46,564 nucleotides of DNA from a virus. Position numbers and translations under genes: made by a program. This document shows positions 5,941 to 39,622 of the stretch, piece by piece. The stretch is taken from positions 1-46,564 of IMG/VR virus record IMGVR_UViG_3300028809_000024. The stretch is one strand, 5' to 3'. The notes beneath the pieces are model-generated. The model was not told the DNA's origin. It saw only the letters and a list, made by a program, of their open reading frames with translations, and searched no databases. Position 1 is the first letter of the stretch. The number at the start of each line of letters is the position of its first letter.

Positions 5941-7020
5941 TCACTGGAAAGGCCGACGCGGGACACCCGCCAACTCCAAGAACTTGACAGCGATATCGAT
6001 GTTGGCAAGGACGTAATCCTTATCGCTTTCGACATAACCTTCTGCGAAGATGCCATTGGCTTCGACGTGGATGTCGCCGTACATATAGATCGGAGCACCC
6101 ATCGCCTTGAATTCGGCCACAACCGGGTCTGCCTGACCCGCGTGATCGTGAACCTGTTCCAGAACATCTACCAGTGGTTTCATTGGTTCCTCCTTCTGCT
6201 CTTCCCGATACCGATTGAAGAATTCGGCATACAGTTCCGCCGACCGTTCGGTCATCTCCGGAGCCGTGTTCATCTCGATGACGAACGCCTTCTGCCGGTT
6301 AGCGTCGTAGATCACGTCCAGACCTGCGAAGTGGAACTCGGGGAAGTACGTCCACACGTCCCGCACAGCCTTCTCGACCGCATCGGGAAGCTTCACCGGC
6401 TCACCGTCCACAGTCCACACGAAATAGCAGCCGTTGGCGTTGGTGCGGATGCGGATGTCATCCTTCGGCAGTCCCTTCGGCAAGAACTTCTGCTGAACTC
6501 CGATGATGACAGACGTACCGTCCGGATCGCGGCCCATGTGGATACGGTACTCCGCCGTCTTCGCTTCAAGCGAGACGTACAGAGGGGCGTCCACCAGCTG
6601 TGCGTTGTTTTCAGCAACGACGATACCTTCACCGTCCTTGCCCTTCACCTTGGTCCGACACAAGATCGGGAACGTGAGACGACCCTGTGCTTCCGCAGAG
6701 GCCGCTGCCTCGACGCGATCTTCTCCGCGCTTGACCGCGATAAAGTTCGGGACGTTCGGGCTACGAGCCGTCCGCTTGAAGAACTCACGCTTGTCCGTAG
6801 CTGCCCGCGTTTCCGGGTTGAGCGTAATCACGGTGTCACGGCTGCGAGGACCGTACCAGTTGAGGAAGTCTCCTGCGCCCCAGTTGATGAGAACATCACC
6901 ATCCTGTGGGGCGTATCGGCTTCCGTTGCGCAGGATTTTCTGACAGTCCAGTGCTGCCGCAACAGCAGTCGCACCTTCCGAAAGCTGATCCCACGGATAC
7001 ACGTAAATACGATTAGCCAT
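5941..7020 (-). CDS. ATP-grasp carboxylate-amine ligase (359 aa)
   Basis: Predicted to activate a carboxylate as acyl-phosphate with ATP and join it to an amine (RimK/glutathione-synthetase style). Seen: a Lys/Gly-rich ATP loop (TKVKGKDGEGIVV, residues 123-135) and a metal-binding end GLDVIYD (233-239) followed by FVIEMNTAPEM (246-256) with the acidic and Asn ligands. The last 80 residues form a separate module that begins at Met280, where AAGGAGG lies 5 bases ahead of an in-frame ATG (6183), so a short separate product is possible. The start overlaps the amidoligase stop (TAATG) behind AAGGAG. This is one of three ligases in the cluster. Confidence 0.88.
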   Translation of the reverse strand: MANRIYVYPWDQLSEGATAVAAALDCQKILRNGSRYAPQDGDVLINWGAGDFLNWYGPRSRDTVITLNPETRAATDKREFFKRTARSPNVPNFIAVKRGEDRVEAAASAEAQGRLTFPILCRTKVKGKDGEGIVVAENNAQLVDAPLYVSLEAKTAEYRIHMGRDPDGTSVIIGVQQKFLPKGLPKDDIRIRTNANGCYFVWTVDGEPVKLPDAVEKAVRDVWTYFPEFHFAGLDVIYDANRQKAFVIEMNTAPEMTERSAELYAEFFNRYREEQKEEPMKPLVDVLEQVHDHAGQADPVVAEFKAMGAPIYMYGDIHVEANGIFAEGYVESDKDYVLANIDIAVKFLELAGVPRRPFQ

Positions 7021-8348
7021 TAGTTTTCTCCTTCGTCCTCGACTTCACCAAAACCACCACCAGCTAGTTCGGCCAATGCGGCTGCAACTGCCGGGTTTTC
7101 CACTGGGATCGGTGGCATTACACGTGCATCCTCGAAACGACCCTGCTCGAAATTCCACTGAGGATCGTGCAACGGGATAGGTTCAGGTTGCATACCAGCA
7201 ACAGCGCGGGCACGACGACGGGGCGCTTCTTCTGGCTCGAACTCACGATCAATAGGATCGATATCTTCCTCTTCGTCTTCGTCAGCAAACGGGTTCTTCA
7301 ACCGCTCCTGTGCAAGCGCCCAGTTGGCAGCCCGAGCATCGCGCTCGGCCTTGAGAAGCTCCGTCTCGACAACTTCACCAGCTTCTTCCCGTTCCGGAAC
7401 GATGTCCCAGTTGGTTCCGAAGAGAAGCGGCTGCACCAGCAAGAAGCCCTTACGAACTTTGTCAGGTACATCTTCGTTGTCCGGAATGGCCAGCATCTCC
7501 GTCCACAGTCCCAGCAGATCGTGATCCCGAATGATCCGGTCGATGACACCATAGGCGCTCATAGCCGACACGTCCGAGGCCAGTTTCATTGGGTTGCCGT
7601 AGGTCGTATGCGCCTCCGTCCGAAGTGCCCACAGGAACTTGACCCACTGGATCACCATGTCCGGGTTTTCCGCCCCGCGAAGGCAGCGGAACTCGATGGA
7701 CCCGCGATCCCACAGCGGCTTGAGGTTCATGGAGTTGTACTTGAGACCTTGACCCCATTCAGGAGCACGTCCTTCAAGATGCTCCGTCCACTGCTCTACG
7801 GTTGCGAGGCTGTCCTTCACACGAAGACAGAACGGGTTGGACACCCGCTGATCGCCACACCAGTTGGTAGCGACCTCCTCGACCATCGACCACAGAGCGA
7901 TCATGCTGGTGATCGGCTTCGGACTGAACATAGAGAAGTTCAGATGAACGTGCGTCGAACACCGATTGGACAGTTGCAGTTTGCTGCCTGCCTTCTCGAA
8001 TTGCTCCCACAGGCCGACGAGCATCGGTTCCACCTCGGCAACCTTGATAGGTCCGGAGGTGATATACTCGAAGTTGTCGCCGCGAAGCGAGCCGTCCTTG
8101 GTCGCAACCCAATGCCGAGCGGTTTGCTCGGTCAGCAGCGGGAAACCCGTGTCCACCGGAATGTCACCAGCCCGTACGTGATCGGGACCGGGCAGGTCGT
8201 CACCCTCGATTTCGAGTTCCAACCCTACGTCTCCGTACACAGGCTTGAGCCTGATCGCCTTGCCCAGAAACATCTTGATCCGATAGTCACGAGTACCTTC
8301 CTTGACGACCTTGGCCGCTTCCATACGTTTGAAAATCGCTTCGCTCAT
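7020..8348 (-). CDS. Amidoligase, COOH-NH2 ligase of glutamine-synthetase fold (442 aa)
   Basis: Predicted ATP-dependent ligase that forms amide bonds. The signature residues of the phage/fungal amidoligase family are visible: GLELEIEGD (42-50), DGSLRGDNFEYITSGP (85-100), CSTHVHLNFS (130-139), and YNSMNLKPLWDRGSIEFRCLRG (204-225); the Glu and His residues would hold Mg-ATP. After about residue 330 comes an acidic, low-complexity tail (DEDEEEDIDPIDREFEPEE, then Pro/Ala rich), probably disordered. It overlaps both neighbours by start/stop codons. Known: the family was predicted by comparative genomics in clusters with ATP-grasp and glutamine amidotransferase genes. The substrate is unknown. Confidence 0.88.
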   Translation of the reverse strand: MSEAIFKRMEAAKVVKEGTRDYRIKMFLGKAIRLKPVYGDVGLELEIEGDDLPGPDHVRAGDIPVDTGFPLLTEQTARHWVATKDGSLRGDNFEYITSGPIKVAEVEPMLVGLWEQFEKAGSKLQLSNRCSTHVHLNFSMFSPKPITSMIALWSMVEEVATNWCGDQRVSNPFCLRVKDSLATVEQWTEHLEGRAPEWGQGLKYNSMNLKPLWDRGSIEFRCLRGAENPDMVIQWVKFLWALRTEAHTTYGNPMKLASDVSAMSAYGVIDRIIRDHDLLGLWTEMLAIPDNEDVPDKVRKGFLLVQPLLFGTNWDIVPEREEAGEVVETELLKAERDARAANWALAQERLKNPFADEDEEEDIDPIDREFEPEEAPRRRARAVAGMQPEPIPLHDPQWNFEQGRFEDARVMPPIPVENPAVAAALAELAGGGFGEVEDEGEN

Positions 8349-9013
8349 CGCACCACTACTCCTTGGTCACGGAAGATCGGGTTTTCTTCGATCTCTTCCT
8401 TGAGGTACTTGAACCGGCGTCCGAGCTGGACCGCGTGAGGATCGGAGAACAAACCGACCCGGTAGTCCTTCCTCCACAGCCACAGGTAGCCGTCTTCACT
8501 GGCCTCCAGCAAATACTCTCGGCTTACCGCAATCGCTACCTTCGGTTGACCGAGTAGTATTGCAGCTGTATCCGGGATAGTCGGATAATCCCCTGCCAGC
8601 ATCTCGCTGAAACCTTCGTCATACAGCAGATCGGATACCGTCAGGTTCTGGTGTCGATCCAGCCCTTCACCGAACTGGCTAAGCTCCCACATGACGACAT
8701 TCTCGTCACCGTAGCCACGCCGGGTCTGCCGAATAGGTCGAATGTCGGCCAGAACTGCACCATCGCTGTGGTTGATCCACCCCATCGGATCGAACCGGAA
8801 GTGATTGAACCCCGGATCGTCGATGTCCACCTCCTGACGCATACCGAGCTTGTCGTTCATAATGACACGAGCAGCGGCGTTCTCATCGTCGGGAATAGGC
8901 ATGTGGATGGACGTGACGTTGTACGCATGACCATTGTAGATGACCATGCGATAGCGAATGTGCTGGAGTGCCTGATCCATGTCCTCGAAGATACCGTAAG
9001 GATGTTTCGCCAT
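8345..9013 (-). CDS. Hypothetical protein of the amidoligase cluster, 222 aa
   Basis: I recognise no family. It lies between the two COOH-NH2 ligases, overlapping one by ATGA and following the other by 3 bases, so it is likely part of the same assembly. It is rich in acidic residues and aromatics (DPGFNHFRFDPMGW, YLWLWRKDY) and has no membrane segment or Cys cluster. An adaptor or substrate-handling protein is possible, by position only. Confidence 0.8.
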   Translation of the reverse strand: MAKHPYGIFEDMDQALQHIRYRMVIYNGHAYNVTSIHMPIPDDENAAARVIMNDKLGMRQEVDIDDPGFNHFRFDPMGWINHSDGAVLADIRPIRQTRRGYGDENVVMWELSQFGEGLDRHQNLTVSDLLYDEGFSEMLAGDYPTIPDTAAILLGQPKVAIAVSREYLLEASEDGYLWLWRKDYRVGLFSDPHAVQLGRRFKYLKEEIEENPIFRDQGVVVR

Positions 9014-9016
9014 ACA

Positions 9017-9817
9017 TCAATCTCCCATCATAAAGCGCAGGATCGACTTGCACTCGTCCACGTCCGAACGATTGATGGCATCGATCACGTCTGCGTCCAC
9101 GACATCGTGCGTGGCATCGTTGGTCACGAGCTGCTCGACTGCCTTGTGCGAAAGCGTGTACATCACGAAGCGCCGACGCTCGGACTTGATCCATGCGTTC
9201 GACGGTACACGATATTCACAGCCATACGGCTTGACGCGGAACGCACCGGCTGCGCCGTACAGAACGCGGCGGGTGGGGTCGGGGTCCATGATGACAGACG
9301 CACAACCGAGATATCGGTCGAGCATACGCACCAGCTTGGCCATCTGCTCGAAGTGAGCTTCTTCCCGGAAGTTGGGGAACGTACCCAGTCCGAAGTGGAT
9401 GTGACCAGCAGCCGTTCGCAGGCCGGGGATAGGTGGCTCGGGACGCGGGTTGGCTTCCATCGTATAGGCGTTGAAGTCGGGGTCGCACCCCAGTTCCTTT
9501 GCCTCATCCGGCATGATCGCCAGCGTCACCTCGTCGAACACCACCGAACCACGAATGTCGAACTCCAGACTGCTCGGAAGCATAGCTTCCATCTGGGCTA
9601 GAACAGACGTGATATTGTAGCTGAACTCGGCAGCCGTTGCAGCCGGAGCCGTGTTGAACTCCAGCGCCATACCATCGACCTGAACCGCACCGTCGTTGAC
9701 GGCGTGAGGCTCGGCCTTGGTGCCCGGGACAAGACCGTACGCTGATACCGGCATCTTGGTCTCACGATCACGGACAAACACTTCGGGATCACACCCGAGA
9801 GTGAGATTGATCGTCAT
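9017..9817 (-). CDS. phiEco32-type COOH-NH2 ligase (266 aa)
   Basis: Second glutamine-synthetase-fold ligase, of the type named after phage phiEco32. Motifs: LGCDPEVFV (7-15), VQVDGMALEFNTAPA (45-59), AAGHIHFGLG (136-145), and YGCEYRVPSNAWI (about 195-207). The first Glu, the Glu of LEFN and the HIH pair match the expected ATP/metal site. The start at 9817 has AAAGGAG upstream. Having this and the other amidoligase in one operon implies two different amide bonds or two steps of one product. Confidence 0.85.
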   Translation of the reverse strand: MTINLTLGCDPEVFVRDRETKMPVSAYGLVPGTKAEPHAVNDGAVQVDGMALEFNTAPAATAAEFSYNITSVLAQMEAMLPSSLEFDIRGSVVFDEVTLAIMPDEAKELGCDPDFNAYTMEANPRPEPPIPGLRTAAGHIHFGLGTFPNFREEAHFEQMAKLVRMLDRYLGCASVIMDPDPTRRVLYGAAGAFRVKPYGCEYRVPSNAWIKSERRRFVMYTLSHKAVEQLVTNDATHDVVDADVIDAINRSDVDECKSILRFMMGD

Positions 9818-9837
9818 AGTCTGCTTCTCCTTTCGTG

Positions 9838-11388
9838 TTAACGGGGACCGTCAAACCAGTTCCACTTACCGTCGTTCGGACGATTGGGCCGGGTCGTGAC
9901 CAGCTTTGAACATTTCTGCCCTTTTGGGATCACCAACGGTGGTGGGGACACATTGATCGTATCCGGGGCACGAAGGACCGCAGCCCCAAGATCGGGGATC
10001 GGATCGTCCAGCGGAAGTTCGAGCGCCTGAACATCGAGGAACAGCGCCGAGTTGGCCTCCATAGGAGGGACACCGGGGATGCCGAGTTCCGACCACGGAA
10101 TGTCGTCGTTGTCAGACACAGCAGTTTGCTTGTCCATCGCCTGTTGCCAGTCGTTATCGAACCAGTCCTTGCAGCAGTTCGTACACACAGCGAAGGAATA
10201 GTCCTTAGCCAGATGCCCGATCTCACGAGGATCGGTGAAGAAGGTTCCGCAGGAATGGCACGAACCGTCCGTACGGTATTCCAGCAGCTCGCGGAACTTG
10301 ATCTCGTGGCTGCCCGGAGCGCATACGTAAGCCACGCCTGCCACGTTTCGCCACAGCTTTCCCGACTTGTCGTTCCACTTGATGCCGTTTCCCTGCTTCT
10401 TCTCCTCCTCTTTCGACTTGAGGATCGAGCCGAGGTTGGGTACCCTCATCGCGCCGCTGTCGTTCTGACCGCACATGGCCCACTTCTGGTCCTTGATGTC
10501 CCACTTGACGTAGTAGAACTCACCATCGTCGTTGGCCGTGTTCGTCGTACCATTCTTCCCAAAGTTGTTCGTATCGATCCCGAGGTCTTCGATCATCTCC
10601 TTCAGGATACGCTCCCCCGTGAAACCGTCGAACTGGACCGTGATCTCCTTGACGGGTTCCGGCTTTCCCTCTAAAGGGATGTCTTCGAGTTGCACCACCG
10701 TGCCTTCCTCGTCGAGCTGCCACTTGCGCCAGACGTTGGTCGGGAGCTTGGTGAAGAAGCGACCATCGTCCCACTTCTCGAACTTCGTTCGATCCTTTTC
10801 TCCCGCACGCACCATGCCTTGGATCATCCAATACTCGGATGCCCAGTACAGGTTGCCGTCCTTGCCACGAGCCAGCCACATCGGGCGCTCGTCGTTGCGC
10901 AGCATGTTGAGCGTCTGCTCATCGTCGTCCCACCAGACGAAGCACCACGCCCCGTAGATGCGGCTGATGGTCTCCTGCACCCCGTAGTAGGCGAAGTTAT
11001 AGAACACCGCCTGACTGTCGGATGCGAACACCTCGTTCGTACCCCACTGGAGTTGCTCCCGCCAGTCGCCTCGAAGCGTACCGTTGTGAGCGCCGATGAT
11101 GTTGTCGAAGATGAACGGATGAGCCGTCTCACGATTGACGTGCCCGATGGTCGCCGACCGCACATGCCCGATCACGCATTGGGCGCCCTTGTCCGGTAGC
11201 TTGAAGTAAAAGGGCGGACTGCCCACACGCTTCGAGACGTATGCCGCCTCTTCGAGATCGGCGGGAACGACGCCAACACCGACACTGTCCATGCCGCGAA
11301 GAGCACAGATGAAAAGACCTTCCTCGATCTTACTCTCGTCGGTTGCACCGGCAATCTTCTTGCCAAACATTCCTACATGACCGCACAT
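9838..11388 (-). CDS. Class II glutamine amidotransferase with C-terminal Cys-rich domain (516 aa)
   Basis: Ntn-type glutaminase: the start MCGHVG exposes Cys2 as nucleophile after Met removal. GHVRSATIGHVNRETAHPF and GAHNGTL are the Arg and Asn/Gly parts of the glutamine pocket. It would release ammonia from glutamine or transfer a glutaminyl group. After the roughly 260-residue amidotransferase domain comes a second region with four cysteines in pairs (CHSCGTF and CTNCCKDW), a likely zinc ribbon, then an acidic/Pro-rich tail. A longer frame to 11490 exists, but the Cys2 rule and AGGAG 7 bases upstream fix the start at 11388. It feeds the neighbouring ligases by inference. Confidence 0.9.
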   Translation of the reverse strand: MCGHVGMFGKKIAGATDESKIEEGLFICALRGMDSVGVGVVPADLEEAAYVSKRVGSPPFYFKLPDKGAQCVIGHVRSATIGHVNRETAHPFIFDNIIGAHNGTLRGDWREQLQWGTNEVFASDSQAVFYNFAYYGVQETISRIYGAWCFVWWDDDEQTLNMLRNDERPMWLARGKDGNLYWASEYWMIQGMVRAGEKDRTKFEKWDDGRFFTKLPTNVWRKWQLDEEGTVVQLEDIPLEGKPEPVKEITVQFDGFTGERILKEMIEDLGIDTNNFGKNGTTNTANDDGEFYYVKWDIKDQKWAMCGQNDSGAMRVPNLGSILKSKEEEKKQGNGIKWNDKSGKLWRNVAGVAYVCAPGSHEIKFRELLEYRTDGSCHSCGTFFTDPREIGHLAKDYSFAVCTNCCKDWFDNDWQQAMDKQTAVSDNDDIPWSELGIPGVPPMEANSALFLDVQALELPLDDPIPDLGAAVLRAPDTINVSPPPLVIPKGQKCSKLVTTRPNRPNDGKWNWFDGPR

Positions 11389-11404
11389 AGACTTCTCCTG
11401 TGTG

Positions 11405-11572
11405 TTAACCGATACTCCGCACAAGCACCCTGCTTCCGTGACGGAGTGTACCAGAGTTTCTGATCTTCCTTGCTCGACGATCCGTCTCATTATACGTATC
11501 GACCGGACCTCGAAGGTCTATGTCACCGCCTCGATGAACGATAACACACAGGAAGTTTTTGTAGTGGCTCAT
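11405..11572 (-). CDS. Possible small gene, 55 aa
   Basis: This ORF fills the gap between the two amidotransferase genes: its ATG is 2 bases after the upstream TGA, and its TAA is just before the next ribosome site. The product is basic (MSHYKNFLCVIV..., many Arg near the end). No good ribosome site is seen, so it would depend on coupling. No family recognised. Confidence 0.45.
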   Translation of the reverse strand: MSHYKNFLCVIVHRGGDIDLRGPVDTYNETDRRARKIRNSGTLRHGSRVLVRSIG

Positions 11573-11573
11573 A

Positions 11574-12323
11574 TCAGCAGCAACCAGCGCCGATACGCGC
11601 TGCCCCTTGCTTGATGACCTCGGGAACGATCAGACCTTCCCGCTCGATGCCCATGCGAGGCTCGGCAAGGAAGTCGATCACTTTCTGGGCAGCCCACACG
11701 CTGAACTCGTCACCACCCCACTCAGGATGGCCCTGAATACCGATGATGTTGTCCTTGCGATAGCGGTAGCCCTCGACCTCGGTGATGGGCTTCTCCGCCG
11801 TCGAATAGATGGGACCGTCAGCACAGACGAACACGGGCGAGATAGGTTCGCGAGGCTCGGCCATCAGTTCGAAGCCGTTGGTCGCAGCCGACTTGCCGTT
11901 GGTCCATTCCATCCGCACCATCTGGTGATGCGTCGAACAGGTGTTCGGAATAATCGTCCCGTCATCGCGGTCACGCAGATCGTGGAAGACACCAGCGTGT
12001 CCCTCGATATGCTGCCACAGCTTGCCATCCTTCATGGCGTGCAGGAACTGGCTGCCCCGGCAAATGCCGAGCATCGGGATACCCGCCGAGATAGCGTAGT
12101 CGAAGATGTCCGTTTCCGTTGCATCACGCACCAGATCGACACCCGAAGCCACGTTGGTTTCGCCGTAGATGGTTGGGTTCACGTCCGCACCGCCGGTGAA
12201 GACGATCAGGTTCGCATCCTCGATAGCGGTTGCAAGCTCGGCTCCGACGAAGTTGCGTACCCACACCTTCACGTCTTCGCTGCCTGCTCCGTCAAGGACG
12301 TACGCGACAATATGCTTAGCCAT
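11574..12323 (-). CDS. Class I glutamine amidotransferase-like, peptidase C26 type (249 aa)
   Basis: Flavodoxin-like amidotransferase/gamma-glutamyl hydrolase. The triad is visible: Cys88 in GICRGSQ, His199 and Glu201 in IQGHPEW. FTGGADVNPTIYGE (42-55) is typical of the C26 group (PuuD/gamma-glutamyl hydrolase), which cleaves gamma-glutamyl amides. The start MAKHIVAYV at 12323 is chosen for GGAG 8 bases upstream over a longer frame to 12356. It is the first gene after the 12.4-kb promoter, behind a hairpin. In this cluster it may trim a gamma-glutamyl group or supply ammonia. Confidence 0.9.
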   Translation of the reverse strand: MAKHIVAYVLDGAGSEDVKVWVRNFVGAELATAIEDANLIVFTGGADVNPTIYGETNVASGVDLVRDATETDIFDYAISAGIPMLGICRGSQFLHAMKDGKLWQHIEGHAGVFHDLRDRDDGTIIPNTCSTHHQMVRMEWTNGKSAATNGFELMAEPREPISPVFVCADGPIYSTAEKPITEVEGYRYRKDNIIGIQGHPEWGGDEFSVWAAQKVIDFLAEPRMGIEREGLIVPEVIKQGAARIGAGCC

Positions 12324-12348
12324 TCGATAGTCTCCACATATGCGAAAA

Positions 12349-12374
12349 CCCAGCAAGCGGTATTGCTTACTGGG
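12349..12374 (-). terminator. Leader hairpin with short U run (attenuator-like)
   Basis: Minus strand: CCCAGTAAGC, 6-base loop AATACC, GCTTGCTGGG, then TTTTC. This is a 10-bp stem with one G-T pair, sitting about 25-50 bases after the expected start of the 12.4-kb transcript and just before the ribosome site of the C26 gene. The U run is short, so partial termination or a leader structure is more likely than a full stop. Confidence 0.5.
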
Positions 12375-17072: not shown

Positions 17073-17202
17073 TGGTGTTCCCTTTCGTTTCGTACTGCTC
17101 ACGCAGTTCAGGGGTGAGAGGCACATGACGCACCTTGCCCTTTGCACCTGCCCGGCGCTGGTCCAGCCCATGGCTAGACGGATTGCTCCACTTGTGTGAC
17201 AC
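17056..17202 (-). CDS. Small basic protein, 48 aa
   Basis: GTG start with GGGAGA 7 bases upstream. The product includes KVRHVPLTPELREQYETK and ends in TAG. Basic, no family recognised. Found by reading the gap by eye. Confidence 0.6.
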   Translation of the reverse strand: MSHKWSNPSSHGLDQRRAGAKGKVRHVPLTPELREQYETKGNTNGNRR

Positions 17203-17271
17203 CTGATCGTCTCCCTTGTTTCATATTAGGGGTTGACACATCTAAACCCTCGGTAAGTCAAAGGCTTAGAA

Positions 17272-17299
17272 GTGCCGCGCACGATTATGCGCGCGACAC
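17272..17299 (-). other. GC-rich hairpin in the 17203-17341 gap
   Basis: Nine-bp stem (GTGTCGCGC with GCGCGGCAC, one G-T pair) with a 10-base loop; no U run follows. A second weak stem (GGGTT/AACCC) lies nearer the next start. Perhaps RNA processing or transcript stability between the 180-residue gene and the small genes after it. Confidence 0.4.
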
Positions 17300-17341
17300 C
17301 CCTTCACACTCACCGCTTGTGCGCGGCTTGTGCGCGTCACC

Positions 17342-17884
17342 TTAGTTGATGGTACGCACTTCACCAGCAATGCGCTTGGCGTGAGCCGCGACAGTCGGTT
17401 CGATACCGTCCTTGTCCGCAATAGCGTCGATACGCTTGGCCAGCCCTTCCAGCATCTTGAGCAGCGTCTTCAGGTCATAGACCTTTTCCTCGGGAGTACC
17501 TTCGGCAAGCTTCCAAAACGGCTCAGCATCCGCACCAGCGATATCCCATTTGGACAGCTTGGCAGCGTCGGTAGTCAGTTTGCCATAGCTGGCGGTATAG
17601 CCGACGTTATCGCCCTGATCGGACAGCTTCACCGCGATAGGTGAATACTTCGCGAACCATTGAATGAGCATGGTCCGACGCATGGATGCGGGCATAGCCT
17701 TCACCAACATGAGGGCACGAGTGCAGTCGCCATGACCGAAGCCACCCGCATCGACAGGGGCAGCGTGCTTGAGGATGGAAAGGGCGAGGCTGTGCGCCTG
17801 ATCGTTCAGCTTGGCCGCATTCGTGGTAAACTTGACGGTAGCTGCGTCGATGGCCTTGAGACCCTTGATGATTTTGGTAGCCAT
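17342..17884 (-). CDS. Hypothetical protein, 180 aa; first gene of the leftward block
   Basis: No family I can name. The central part (HGDCTRALMLVKAMPASMRR) recalls conserved unknowns of podoviruses. Mostly helical with a Lys-rich C-terminal helix; Cys only in HGDC. AAAGGA lies 7 bases before the ATG. It directly follows the long leader from the 19.35-kb promoter, which makes it the first leftward, probably early, product. Confidence 0.8.
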   Translation of the reverse strand: MATKIIKGLKAIDAATVKFTTNAAKLNDQAHSLALSILKHAAPVDAGGFGHGDCTRALMLVKAMPASMRRTMLIQWFAKYSPIAVKLSDQGDNVGYTASYGKLTTDAAKLSKWDIAGADAEPFWKLAEGTPEEKVYDLKTLLKMLEGLAKRIDAIADKDGIEPTVAAHAKRIAGEVRTIN

Positions 17885-19338
17885 TTGGGTTGTCCTTTAC
17901 GGTTATCCCCTAGCAACATCGCTAGGCTCAAACACACAAAAGACAGGCGATCCGCATATGCTTGAGACTAGCGAGGCGACTTACAAGCAACACGTTAGAC
18001 GTGATGCATATGCGCCTAGTCAGTCCGATGCCTCATCACCCCGGCTACAACACAACCCGGCATGTTTCCATGTGGTCAAACAGACATCGCACGTATGTTT
18101 CCGGCACCGCGCCTATTGGCGTCTAAGGCTCATCGTCATATTCGGCTTGAAGCTAGAGGCATCTAATCGGGCAGCAACTAGGGTTAGACAAGCACAAGGC
18201 AAGCCCTAGGCTCCCGTCCCCGTATAGTCAGCTATCGCTGCAATCAGGGGTCTAGCATCCGGCACCTAGCGGCTCTTTCATCCGCAAGTGTGTACAGCTA
18301 GAGGCATACCCTAGCCTTGCCCGTAGATCGCGTGAGCCTTTCGCTCCTATCGCTGCACAGGGCGCAACCCCTGTCGTCACCGCTACCCCTCGCATCGCTT
18401 AGACCGTCCGTGGCGTTCACGCCTCTTAGGTCGGTTCGGAGGGACGGCATAGCGTCCGCGCTGTCCGGTGACCGGCTCAAAGCCGCACCGTCGCCGCATC
18501 CTTTGCACGTCCTGTGCCAAGTCTTCGGAACATGCGTCGATCAGACGCAACACGGCGTCTGGAGCTGTCCAAAATCACCCCATTTTCAACCCCTTTCGCG
18601 GGCACCCTGTACTCTCTCAACTAGTTGATTTCCCTCACCATTTGCTCTCCGAAATGAGTGGACTAAAGGGCTTGGCGTATGCACCCGGTTTGCCCCCTTG
18701 CCGTTGCCTTGCCGTGCTACCAGTGCGCTAAGAACCATTCGCAATAAGGCTCATGTGTAAGCACGTCCGACAGTGTCTAGCGTGACATTTATGCAACACG
18801 TCCTAACTTCCCTTCGATATCAACGTCTTAGCCTACTCCCCGCCGTGTAAAGCGTACCGACGTTCCACCCTTACGTCCCGCATATTCTCGATTGAACTCA
18901 AGCCAGATTTGTCTGGCAATACAGCGACTTACGTCGCATGGGTTAGCCTGTCGGTATCTCTTACACATTGTCTGGACGTACTCCTTGGCATGATCCTTGC
19001 AAGTGCCTCGGGGTCACTCGGCTGGCACAGTCCTTGCATGAAGGTGCCGGGGAGGGGGAGGGGGCATGAAGTCTGGACGTGGTCTGGGCCTAATCTATTC
19101 ACCTCTTACGCCAGATAAAATTTTGAAAAAACGTCCGGGGCAACATCTGGGCAACCCTTTCCATGTTACTGGCAGCAGTAGCTGGACGTCAGAAAAACCA
19201 GTCGCGGGCCTCCTGCTAAGAGCATAAGCTCAGAGCATATACTCTAGAGGTTTATACTCCTACCACATACTCCTACTACAACCTCTACCTATAATCTCTA
19301 TATAAGATACTCTTATCTAGATACTCTATATAGAGTAT
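17885..19338 (-). other. Gene-poor 1.45-kb leader/control region
   Basis: No convincing gene. It contains a CTAG-rich, hairpin-rich part (17909-18374), two adjacent tetraloop hairpins (18902-18917 GCCAGA/TCTGGC, 18924-18937 GCGAC/GTCGC), repeated TGGACGT, a G-rich run (19049-19064), and an AT-rich stretch of repeated ATACTC (19216-19338). Minus-strand ORFs of about 46-60 codons exist, the most protein-like at 18828-18968 (MCKRYRQANPCDV..., 46 codons) and around 18380-18560, but all three frames look similarly open and AGA codons are common. It would be the 5' leader of the leftward transcript, or an origin or packaging region. Confidence 0.6.
17909..18374 (-). ncRNA. Candidate structured RNA with CTAG-bearing helices
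   Basis: Eleven CTAG tetramers lie between 17910 and 18314, against fewer than two expected by chance. Several lie in complementary arms: CCTAGC 17909-17914 with GCTAGG 17921-17926; GACTAG 17966-17971 with CTAGTC 18016-18021; CTAGGG 18178-18183 with CCCTAG 18204-18209; GCTAG 18297-18301 with CTAGC 18311-18315. There is also ACAGGG 18357-18362 with CCCTGT 18369-18374. GCATATGC occurs twice (17954, 18006). Because CTAG is self-complementary some pairing is automatic, but the flanking bases also match. Strand and transcription are inferred. Confidence 0.4.
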
Positions 19339-19350
19339 AGTATATACTAT
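19321..19350. promoter_or_regulatory. Two overlapping palindromes at the leftward promoter (operator-like)
   Basis: ATACTCTATATAGAGTAT (19321-19338) and ATAGTATATACTAT (19337-19350) are perfect palindromes. The second covers the -10 box of the leftward promoter. They look like dimer-binding sites, though AT-rich palindromes can also arise by chance. Confidence 0.5.
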
Positions 19351-19367
19351 TTAGAGGAAAATGTCAA
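19339..19367 (-). promoter_or_regulatory. Sigma70-type promoter, leftward (early block)
   Basis: Minus strand: TTGACA (19367-19362), 17-base spacer, TATACT (19344-19339). GCTTGACATTTTC is shared with the 12.4-kb promoter. It fires through the 1.45-kb leader into the 180-residue gene and beyond. Confidence 0.75.
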
Positions 19368-19406
19368 GCACATTCTTTACGTGTTCAAATTTACGAGGTG
19401 TTGCTC

Positions 19407-19426
19407 CTGCTGCTGCGAAGCAGCGG
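19407..19426. other. Hairpin with GCGA tetraloop between the divergent promoters
   Basis: GCTGCT / AGCAGC stem extended by one G-T and one C-G pair around a GCGA loop. It lies between the two divergent promoters, outside either transcript by the predicted starts. Confidence 0.4.
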
Positions 19427-19480
19427 TGCGGTGCTAAGCGCGCCTGTGCGAAGAAAATTCACCTCTTTGTACGATTTTGC

Positions 19481-19509
19481 TTGACTTTGGCGCGTGAAAA
19501 TGGTATAAT
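19481..19509 (+). promoter_or_regulatory. Sigma70-type promoter, rightward (structural block)
   Basis: TTGACT (19481-19486), 17-base spacer, TATAAT (19504-19509) with TGG before it. GC precedes the -35 as in the minus-strand promoters. Expected start about 19516, just before the first structural-block gene. Confidence 0.8.
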
Positions 19510-19534
19510 ATGTGTATGAGGTATGGGGAAGAAG

Positions 19535-19789
19535 ATGGCTATCGGTCCTAACACGCAGAAAAATACTAAGGCCCGGGCTGCCACGCAAAAGCGATACAGC
19601 TCCAAACCCGAACAAATCAAGCGGCGTGCCCAGCGTAATGCTGCCCGCCGGAAGATGATGAAAGCAGGATTGGTCCGAAAGGGCGACGGCAAGGATGTCC
19701 ACCACAAGGATCGGAACACGGCCAACAACAGTCACAGCAACCTCGCAGTCACGTCACCTTCCAAGAACCGAAGCGTCAAGCGGAAATAA
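19535..19789 (+). CDS. Small HNH-like protein next to terminase (84 aa)
   Basis: Very basic protein with a DVHHKDRNTANNSHSNLAV segment resembling the His-rich core of HNH nucleases (HH, then N, then N-L). HNH proteins beside terminase genes commonly assist DNA packaging. It is short and may lack parts of the full fold, so activity is uncertain. The ATG at 19535 is preferred over 19523 because GGGGAAG then acts as ribosome site. First gene of the rightward transcript, 3 bases before terS. Confidence 0.65.
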   Translation: MAIGPNTQKNTKARAATQKRYSSKPEQIKRRAQRNAARRKMMKAGLVRKGDGKDVHHKDRNTANNSHSNLAVTSPSKNRSVKRK

Positions 19790-39199: not shown

Positions 39200-39317
39200 A
39201 CGAGGCTCGTCCAAGAAAACTGTGTCGTCCAACATCCGAACAGAGATGAAGGCTGGCAAACCTAAAAAGCAGGCTATCGCCATTGCCCTTAACAAGGCAG
39301 GCAAGTCTCGTAGATAA
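39189..39317 (+). CDS. DUF6496-like small basic protein (42 aa)
   Basis: [20 protein letters not shown]... with [19 protein letters not shown] is the conserved pattern of a very common small phage/bacterial protein of unknown function (DUF6496). It overlaps the endolysin end and is the last gene of the rightward block. Confidence 0.8.
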
Positions 39318-39323
39318 AAGAAA

Positions 39324-39352
39324 ACCCCCGGTAGCATATCGCCGCCGGGGGT
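39324..39352. terminator. Bidirectional intrinsic terminator between converging blocks
   Basis: ACCCCCGG / CCGGGGGT, an 8-bp GC stem, followed rightward by CTTTTT and leftward by TTTTCTTTT. It ends both the structural block (plus) and the long leftward block (minus). Confidence 0.9.
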
Positions 39353-39376
39353 CTTTTTGTATCTGCTGTTTGCCGA

Positions 39377-39622
39377 TTATTCCGACAGTTCAAGGTCTAG
39401 CTGCGGATGACCCGCAAGAGGGAAGGTATCGCTCTGGCTGTACTCATCCTTCTCAAACGGAGGACTGATCTGCGTCAGGAACACAGAGCCAGTAAGGACC
39501 ACGACCTTGTTGTTGGGCATGGCCGTACGGAGTTCAGCAATCGCTGCCTCATTCTCATCAGCCTCTGCTCGGTCACGGAAGGCAACCAGCAAAAGGTCTT
39601 CGGCAGAAAGGTATACGTTCAT
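39377..39622 (-). CDS. Hypothetical protein, 81 aa
   Basis: MNVYLSAEDLLLVAFRDRAE... with an acidic second half. No family recognised. The start MNVYL is chosen because it follows the small membrane gene; the ribosome site is weak, so coupling is likely. Last gene before the terminator on the minus strand. Confidence 0.7.
   Translation of the reverse strand: MNVYLSAEDLLLVAFRDRAEADENEAAIAELRTAMPNNKVVVLTGSVFLTQISPPFEKDEYSQSDTFPLAGHPQLDLELSE

Follow-up and report, generated by a model that had tools for sequence, protein, structure and literature searches.

We find that the DNA directly before the first leftward gene of an uncultured phage carries a dense cluster of CTAG tetramers, and that this CTAG-dense stretch most likely belongs to the untranslated leader of the leftward early message, a reading drawn from sequence. 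The strong part of the result is a 90-base predicted structured translation start beside the gene, which appears to be a variant of the T7-type early hairpin. Our computations yielded the cluster, a predicted promoter, a strand-specific fold, a recurring CTAG pair, and compensatory changes in relatives. An earlier note on this DNA had proposed the cluster as a candidate new structured RNA. The observation of the cluster is confirmed, and its interpretation as a structured RNA is partly supported: it stands for the 90 bases beside the gene and not for one large RNA across the whole cluster.

The CTAG cluster and its genomic setting

The window, by which we mean the whole stretch of DNA that was analysed, is 46,564 bases long and covers positions 1-46,564 of the IMG/VR virus record IMGVR_UViG_3300028809_000024. 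Using the list of open reading frames and a PHROG search, we observe a 1.64-kb gap, with no conserved gene found in it, that separates the leftward genes from a rightward block with the order HNH, terminase small subunit, terminase large subunit, and portal. The CTAG cluster makes up the 3′ part of a noncoding stretch of about 1.45 kb that runs from a minus-strand promoter to the first leftward gene. The features of this region are:

17342-17884, minus strand: first leftward (early) gene, 180 aa, from the open reading frame list; PHROG 1448 (phrog_1448, E 8.7e-23), function unknown
17893-17898, minus strand: Shine-Dalgarno-like AAAGGA, 8 nt before the ATG, from the sequence
17910-18314, no strand assigned: CTAG cluster, 11 copies, from the count and shuffles
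17954-17961, no strand assigned: GCATATGC, copy 1, within the stem of hairpin H2 (below)
18006-18013, no strand assigned: GCATATGC, copy 2, from the sequence
19339-19367, minus strand (read 19367-19339): predicted leftward sigma-70 promoter TTGACA-17-TATACT, some 1.45 kb upstream of the ATG and agreeing with the consensus at 11 of 12 positions
19481-19509, plus strand: predicted rightward promoter TTGACT-17-TATAAT, before the HNH/terminase block and conserved in related loci by blastn

A promoter consensus alone is weak evidence, because 1.5 such promoter-like sites are expected per shuffled region. Between the leftward promoter and the ATG at 17884, however, no conserved gene was found, and the related loci L071, L074, L222, L061 and L066 likewise have a good promoter, separated from the first leftward gene by well over 1.5 kb. 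Additionally, a homologue of the 17342-17884 product is the first annotated gene of the T7-like Caulobacter phage Cd1 (tblastn), a gene that is preceded by five annotated early promoters in the Cd1 annotation. Because of this promoter layout, its recurrence in relatives, and the homology to the first gene of Cd1, the best reading of the region is that it forms the leader of an early transcript. The earlier note had placed the cluster right upstream of the first leftward gene, which it is, and in the 5′ leader of that gene, which is what the minus-strand promoter and the lack of a conserved gene before the ATG predict.

The eleven CTAGs start at 17910, 17922, 17968, 18016, 18153, 18178, 18206, 18252, 18266, 18298 and 18311. 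As had been claimed, all eleven fall within 405 bases and 15 are present in the wider region (17885-19522). CTAG is otherwise scarce: the whole window contains 45 copies against 115.65 expected, so that the tetramer is depleted elsewhere. Dinucleotide shuffles of the 405-base segment gave a mean of 2.69 CTAGs and a maximum of 8 (2000 shuffles), and the largest 405-base cluster in shuffles of the whole window had 7 (100 shuffles). Among the 256 tetramers in 17885-18374, CTAG ranks 1 by first-order expectation and 35 by second-order expectation, the latter because CTA and TAG are themselves enriched there. The segment said to occur twice, GCATATGC, does so; for pairing between its copies, the single pair that was read out, 17957/18010, had a probability of 0.0 in the computed contexts.

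Because CTAG is its own reverse complement, its copies are ready-made 4-bp RNA helix cores. The earlier note had described helices reaching beyond the tetramer and a hairpin-rich leader, and each of these claims survives in part. Over all CTAG pairs within 60 nt in the window the extension is marginal, with 5 of 15 pairs extending by at least 2 Watson-Crick pairs against 2.4 expected (p 0.07; p 0.046 when G-U pairs on the minus strand are allowed). However, an inverted repeat formed by 17919-17934 and 17959-17974 is complementary at 14 of 16 positions, a best value attained by 1 of 300 shuffles of the 490-base region. CTAG bases in 17885-18480 have a mean pairing probability of 0.85, compared with 0.63 overall. 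Hairpin richness holds near the gene only: 150-base windows across the gap on the minus strand have an average z of 0.15, with no general fold signal over the leader, and 150-base folds at the CTAGs from 18016 to 18314 are no better than shuffles. The CTAGs in this latter part may serve as helix cores in a leader under weak constraint, or may simply be permitted in noncoding DNA.

Predicted hairpins at the start of the early gene

Two hairpins are predicted at the end of the leader that adjoins the gene:

17891-17945, minus strand: hairpin H1, -22.3 kcal/mol, z -3.40, matched by none of 200 shuffles
17919-17974, minus strand: hairpin H2, 22 pairs, -26.8 kcal/mol, z -5.20, matched by none of 200 shuffles

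In the predicted H1 structure, an outer 14-bp stem includes the Shine-Dalgarno sequence and an inner 7-bp stem holds the CTAGs at 17910 and 17922. In the predicted H2 structure, CTAG 17922 pairs with CTAG 17968, and most of the Shine-Dalgarno stays unpaired. When 9300 sixty-base windows on both strands of the record were scanned, the H2 window (17917-17976) ranked 1 and the H1 window (17887-17946) ranked 28, in a scan whose z values are rough, being based on 30 shuffles, and whose grid happens to start exactly at 17917. The strand opposite H2 folds at -16.5 kcal/mol. H2 contains five G-U pairs and H1 four, and the difference between -26.8 on the leader strand and -16.5 on the opposite strand is what one would see if G-U pairs contribute and the molecule is the minus-strand RNA.

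H1 and H2 are mutually exclusive, because both use 17919-17945. Their predicted energies are close: within 166 nt, H1 gives -53.0 and H2 -52.6 kcal/mol (0.4 apart), and within 505 nt the values are -189.1 and -190.6 kcal/mol, so that H2 is favoured by 1.5, with probabilities of 0.95 for H2 and 0.05 for H1. In a 185-nt context with another end point, H1 is favoured (0.83). The balance between the two hairpins thus varies with the context chosen and is not to be over-read. As in translational riboswitches, the prediction gives two exclusive folds of which one hides the Shine-Dalgarno, an arrangement that was not found in relatives; the relatives with the nearest leaders have no counterpart of H2, and their upstream sequence at that place is coding. 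A conserved ligand-binding aptamer of the riboswitch kind was not found, there being neither an Rfam match nor a domain that the window shares with the related leaders at that place. At the gathering score, Rfam 15, which covers known riboswitches and large phage RNAs, returned no match either in the window or in any of 15 related loci, and at E values up to 5 it returned nothing relevant, the best match in 17200-19600 being a microRNA model with 19.2 bits against a cut-off of 90.

Two further folds were observed in the window. The gap between the first and second leftward genes (17195-17341, minus strand) has a predicted multi-branched fold of -70.5 kcal/mol (z -6.52, 0 of 200 shuffles as good) and is possibly another intercistronic processing element; no sequence like it was found in the related loci examined. 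At 39300-39380 on the plus strand, a long hairpin whose 3′ arm is rich in T (z -6.35) resembles a terminator, which may work on both strands.

Related phages and known systems

By blastn, the region has no match in 50,697 phage records. From a TerL search, 80 IMG/VR loci were retained, and nearly all of their matches to the gap lie at its HNH/promoter end, with none in the CTAG cluster. Searching with the product of the first leftward gene as a single protein found no relative in IMG/VR and none in GTDB genome contigs; a search with a three-sequence alignment found three IMG/VR loci, namely L222, which was new, and the contigs of L071 and L074. No relative aligns to the window's own region, so the covariation check suggested in the earlier note was carried out within relatives, where any one element has two or three alignable sequences. 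In the alignment of L061 with L066, a 34-pair consensus has 6 pairs changed on both sides and 0 broken, and the changes include CC/GG versus TT/AA within a CTAG helix. This position has a z of -5.5 on the leader strand versus -2.4 antisense, and it is the best of 32 leader-strand windows tested. In L071, L074 and L222, a CTAG or near-CTAG hairpin is flanked by conserved ACCGACAATGC and TACGATAGGCCGGAC, and its arms, compared by eye, differ yet are complementary. These sequences support covariation of the CTAG arms in relatives, as a comparison of two or three sequences rather than a formal covariation test. Among viral contigs, a permissive CTAG-hairpin pattern matched at least 119 stretches, near chance by a rough, uncomputed estimate, and was rejected; two stricter patterns matched 2 and 3 stretches, all of them in known relatives.

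A homologue of the first leftward gene is present in 13 of the TerL loci, where the gap is about 1.5-2.9 kb. The observed/expected ratio of CTAG in the leader is >1 in 10 of these 13 loci and <1 in L002, L003 and L018; L002 and L003, which are identical in sequence, are nearest to the window by TerL (75%) and have a ratio of 0.81. Across 65 de-duplicated loci, counting the window, there are 4.72 CTAGs per kb upstream of TerL and 2.23 per kb downstream. Distances from one CTAG to another show a peak at 12, with 16 pairs where 2.67 are expected, and this peak is confined to the upstream side. In the leaders of ten relatives, CTAG ranks 2 of 256 tetramers by first-order and 1 of 256 by second-order expectation, and 26 of 91 CTAG pairs within 60 nt gain at least 2 extra flank pairs against 13.9 expected, in sequences that are not independent. 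We found that 9 of the 28 phages examined (the window, L071, L074, L222, L061, L066, Cd1, Babayka and BC) have a CTAG pair spaced 11-15 and located 26-60 nt before the PHROG 1448 gene; the other 19 have no CTAG pair at that place. CTAG hairpins also occur in L222, L061 and L066 just before small leader genes that the window lacks.

The start of the early gene tends to be structured in these phages. The 70 bases before the ATG fold with a mean z of -1.88 at 34 test starts from 28 phages versus -0.50 at 84 control starts (Mann-Whitney p 2.6e-5), where the test starts are those of the PHROG 1448 gene or of the first or preceding early gene (six are preceding or first-gene starts) and include the near-duplicates L071/L074 and Cd1/Babayka/BC. 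For the 13 IMG/VR phages alone (the window and 12 relatives, without L071), the mean z is -1.94 (p 5e-4). The strongest starts are those of GY3 (-6.28), the DoCa7 gene before the homologue (-5.17), SB3 (-5.01) and L222 (-4.13), and the starts of Cd1, Babayka and BC have z of about 0. The Shine-Dalgarno is largely unpaired in L066, GY3 and GP-4 (0.39, 0.39 and 0.57 paired, respectively). Compared with shuffles, complementarity of the Shine-Dalgarno arm is not significant as a set, with p 0.355 for the window and a combined p of 0.12 over 6 of the 9 computed phages, the near-duplicates L071, Babayka and BC being omitted.

By analogy, the nearest functional counterpart is the T7-type hairpin that precedes early genes. 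When the T7 record was folded, the z values were -2.0, -3.0 and -3.7 at the starts of genes 0.3, 0.5 and 1.3, where CTAG lies in or beside the hairpins, and no such signal was seen at genes 0.7 and 1.1. The RNase III processing signals of the T7 early region include R0.3, R0.5 and R1.3. The window resembles these signals in having irregular hairpins directly before an early gene, in what would be a transcript of the host RNA polymerase, and in having CTAG in or beside them, as T7 does before genes 0.3, 0.5 and 1.3. The predicted promoter and gene order put the window's hairpins in an early transcript directly before an early gene, and their predicted folds (14 + 7 pairs with an internal loop in H1, 22 pairs in H2) are those of irregular hairpins of about two helical turns. 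Unlike the T7 signals, to which it has no demonstrated sequence similarity, the window has its Shine-Dalgarno inside one stem, two hairpins that are mutually exclusive, and a leader of 1.45 kb, and its cleavage is presumed from the likeness.

The Autographiviridae leaders of Caulobacter phage Cd1, Brevundimonas phages Babayka and BC, Xanthomonas phage SB3 and Cronobacter phage GY3 share with the window a homologous gene behind a noncoding stretch (tblastn). Cd1 and Babayka also share a CTAG pair with a spacing of 12 at 26-38 nt before the ATG; however, the starts of Cd1, Babayka and BC are no more stable than shuffles. SB3 and GY3 share strong hairpins (z -5.0 and -6.3), but these two and GP-4 are without the CTAG pair. 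In Salmonella, CTAG-containing intergenic stem-loops have been proposed (PMC5337935), with CTAG retained in intergenic sites predicted as stem-loops, which is like the window, whereas these sites lie in a bacterial chromosome rather than a phage leader and the paper's abstract and structure section describe neither a dense cluster nor a covariation test. Within the PMC literature, which leaves most subscription journals outside its coverage, we found no paper on CTAG hairpins in phage early leaders.

Interpretation of the CTAG region

We give roughly an even chance to the CTAG region being the gene-proximal part of a long early leader with a T7-type processing or translation-initiation hairpin. 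Transcription of the leader, its cleavage and its effect on translation are what we infer. In the H1 form, the Shine-Dalgarno would be held in the outer stem, capped by the CTAG 17910/17922 stem, and the site would be hidden. In the H2 form, CTAG 17922 would pair with the upstream CTAG 17968 in a long double strand and leave the Shine-Dalgarno mostly free. By analogy with T7, host RNase III would most likely cut the long helices of H1 or H2 and so trim the leader, and trimming would leave an open ribosome-binding site for the first early gene.

The cluster could also be explained by relaxed avoidance only, with CTAG shunned in coding DNA and tolerated in the noncoding leader, and the gene-adjacent hairpins incidental. 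CTAG is scarce in the coding part (0.33 observed/expected to the right of TerL), its second-order rank in the segment is just 35 of 256, and most of the leader is without a fold signal, all of which fits. Simple tolerance sits less well with 11 CTAGs where shuffles of the same segment give 2.69 and the first-order rank is 1 of 256, with the rank of CTAG in ten relatives' leaders (2 by first-order and 1 by second-order expectation), with the non-random spacing of CTAGs, or with H2 ranking 1 of 9300, and we consider this explanation unlikely. The evidence on spacing bears as well on a role at the DNA level, where CTAG pairs about one helical turn apart would bind a phage or host protein controlling the divergent early and late promoters. 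The spacing peak at 11-12 is in line with such sites, as are inner arms (CCTAGC/GCTAGG) that barely vary among L071, L074, L222, L061, L066 and the window, and other conserved noncoding blocks that related phages carry on either strand. The spacing at that place nevertheless ranges from 11 to 15, the hairpin energy in the window is strand-specific with G-U pairs, and L061/L066 lose CTAG on both sides of the helix together, which makes DNA sites a decidedly unlikely account.

That the hairpins of the window fold more strongly as RNA from one strand also argues against a replication origin or packaging site in the divergent region, in which the CTAG hairpins would be structural DNA elements. We regard an origin or packaging site as very unlikely. 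It would suit the divergent location beside the terminase genes, the cumulative GC skew minimum at about 19-21 kb, GAACAAA-like repeats in L222, and the repeated AT-rich stretch at 19230-19370; this stretch, however, lies roughly 0.9 kb away from the cluster, immediately downstream of the leftward promoter.

If an early leader with a T7-type hairpin is the right reading, hairpins for processing early messages or controlling their translation are not confined to T7 and occur also in uncultured 46-kb phages whose packaging module differs, and a CTAG cluster would offer an inexpensive sequence marker of structured early leaders in genomes that otherwise avoid CTAG. A more far-reaching form, which we consider unlikely, is that a bistable RNA switch in the leader governs the first early gene. 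CTAG 17922 would choose between a downstream partner that hides the ribosome-binding site and an upstream partner that frees it, the choice depending on the kinetics of transcription, on RNase III, or on a factor from phage or host, and CTAG palindromes would be interchangeable pairing modules across the early leaders of uncultured phages and their T7-like kin. An H1/H2 switch of this sort is possible on the basis of predicted energies, with no parallel in relatives, and it could be tested directly with a short RNA.

Several other elements were observed in the window and its relatives. The AT-rich stretch at 19230-19370, just downstream of the leftward promoter, contains repeated ATACTC/GAGTAT units, and L071 and L074 carry tandem GGATAAGATAAAGA-like repeats at the matching site. 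Two conserved noncoding elements, neither of which is present in the window when checked, occur on either strand in related phages: block B1, about 100 nt in their divergent gaps (e.g. L006 1406-1507, L018 3291-3392, L031 133-233), and block B2, 38 nt with a repeated CGGTTCGTCGC-like unit (e.g. L007 2988-3024, L044 2130-2167, L066 6950-6987). In L222, GAACAAA-like repeats surround block B2. The leaders of L071, L074 and L222 contain small early genes absent from the window, of 97 aa, of 75 aa ending in RSRIL or RTRIL, and of 73 aa (L222); in L071 such genes lie at 993-1286 and 1803-2030 of the leader strand, in coordinates of the excised leader. Downstream of the PHROG 1448 gene, L071, L074, L222 and L040 share a conserved CTAGGCAAGTC...AAACTGCC-like element, again with CTAG. 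On the minus strand of the window, 5941-12356 holds a cluster of ATP-grasp, amidoligase, COOH-NH2 ligase and glutamine amidotransferase-like genes.
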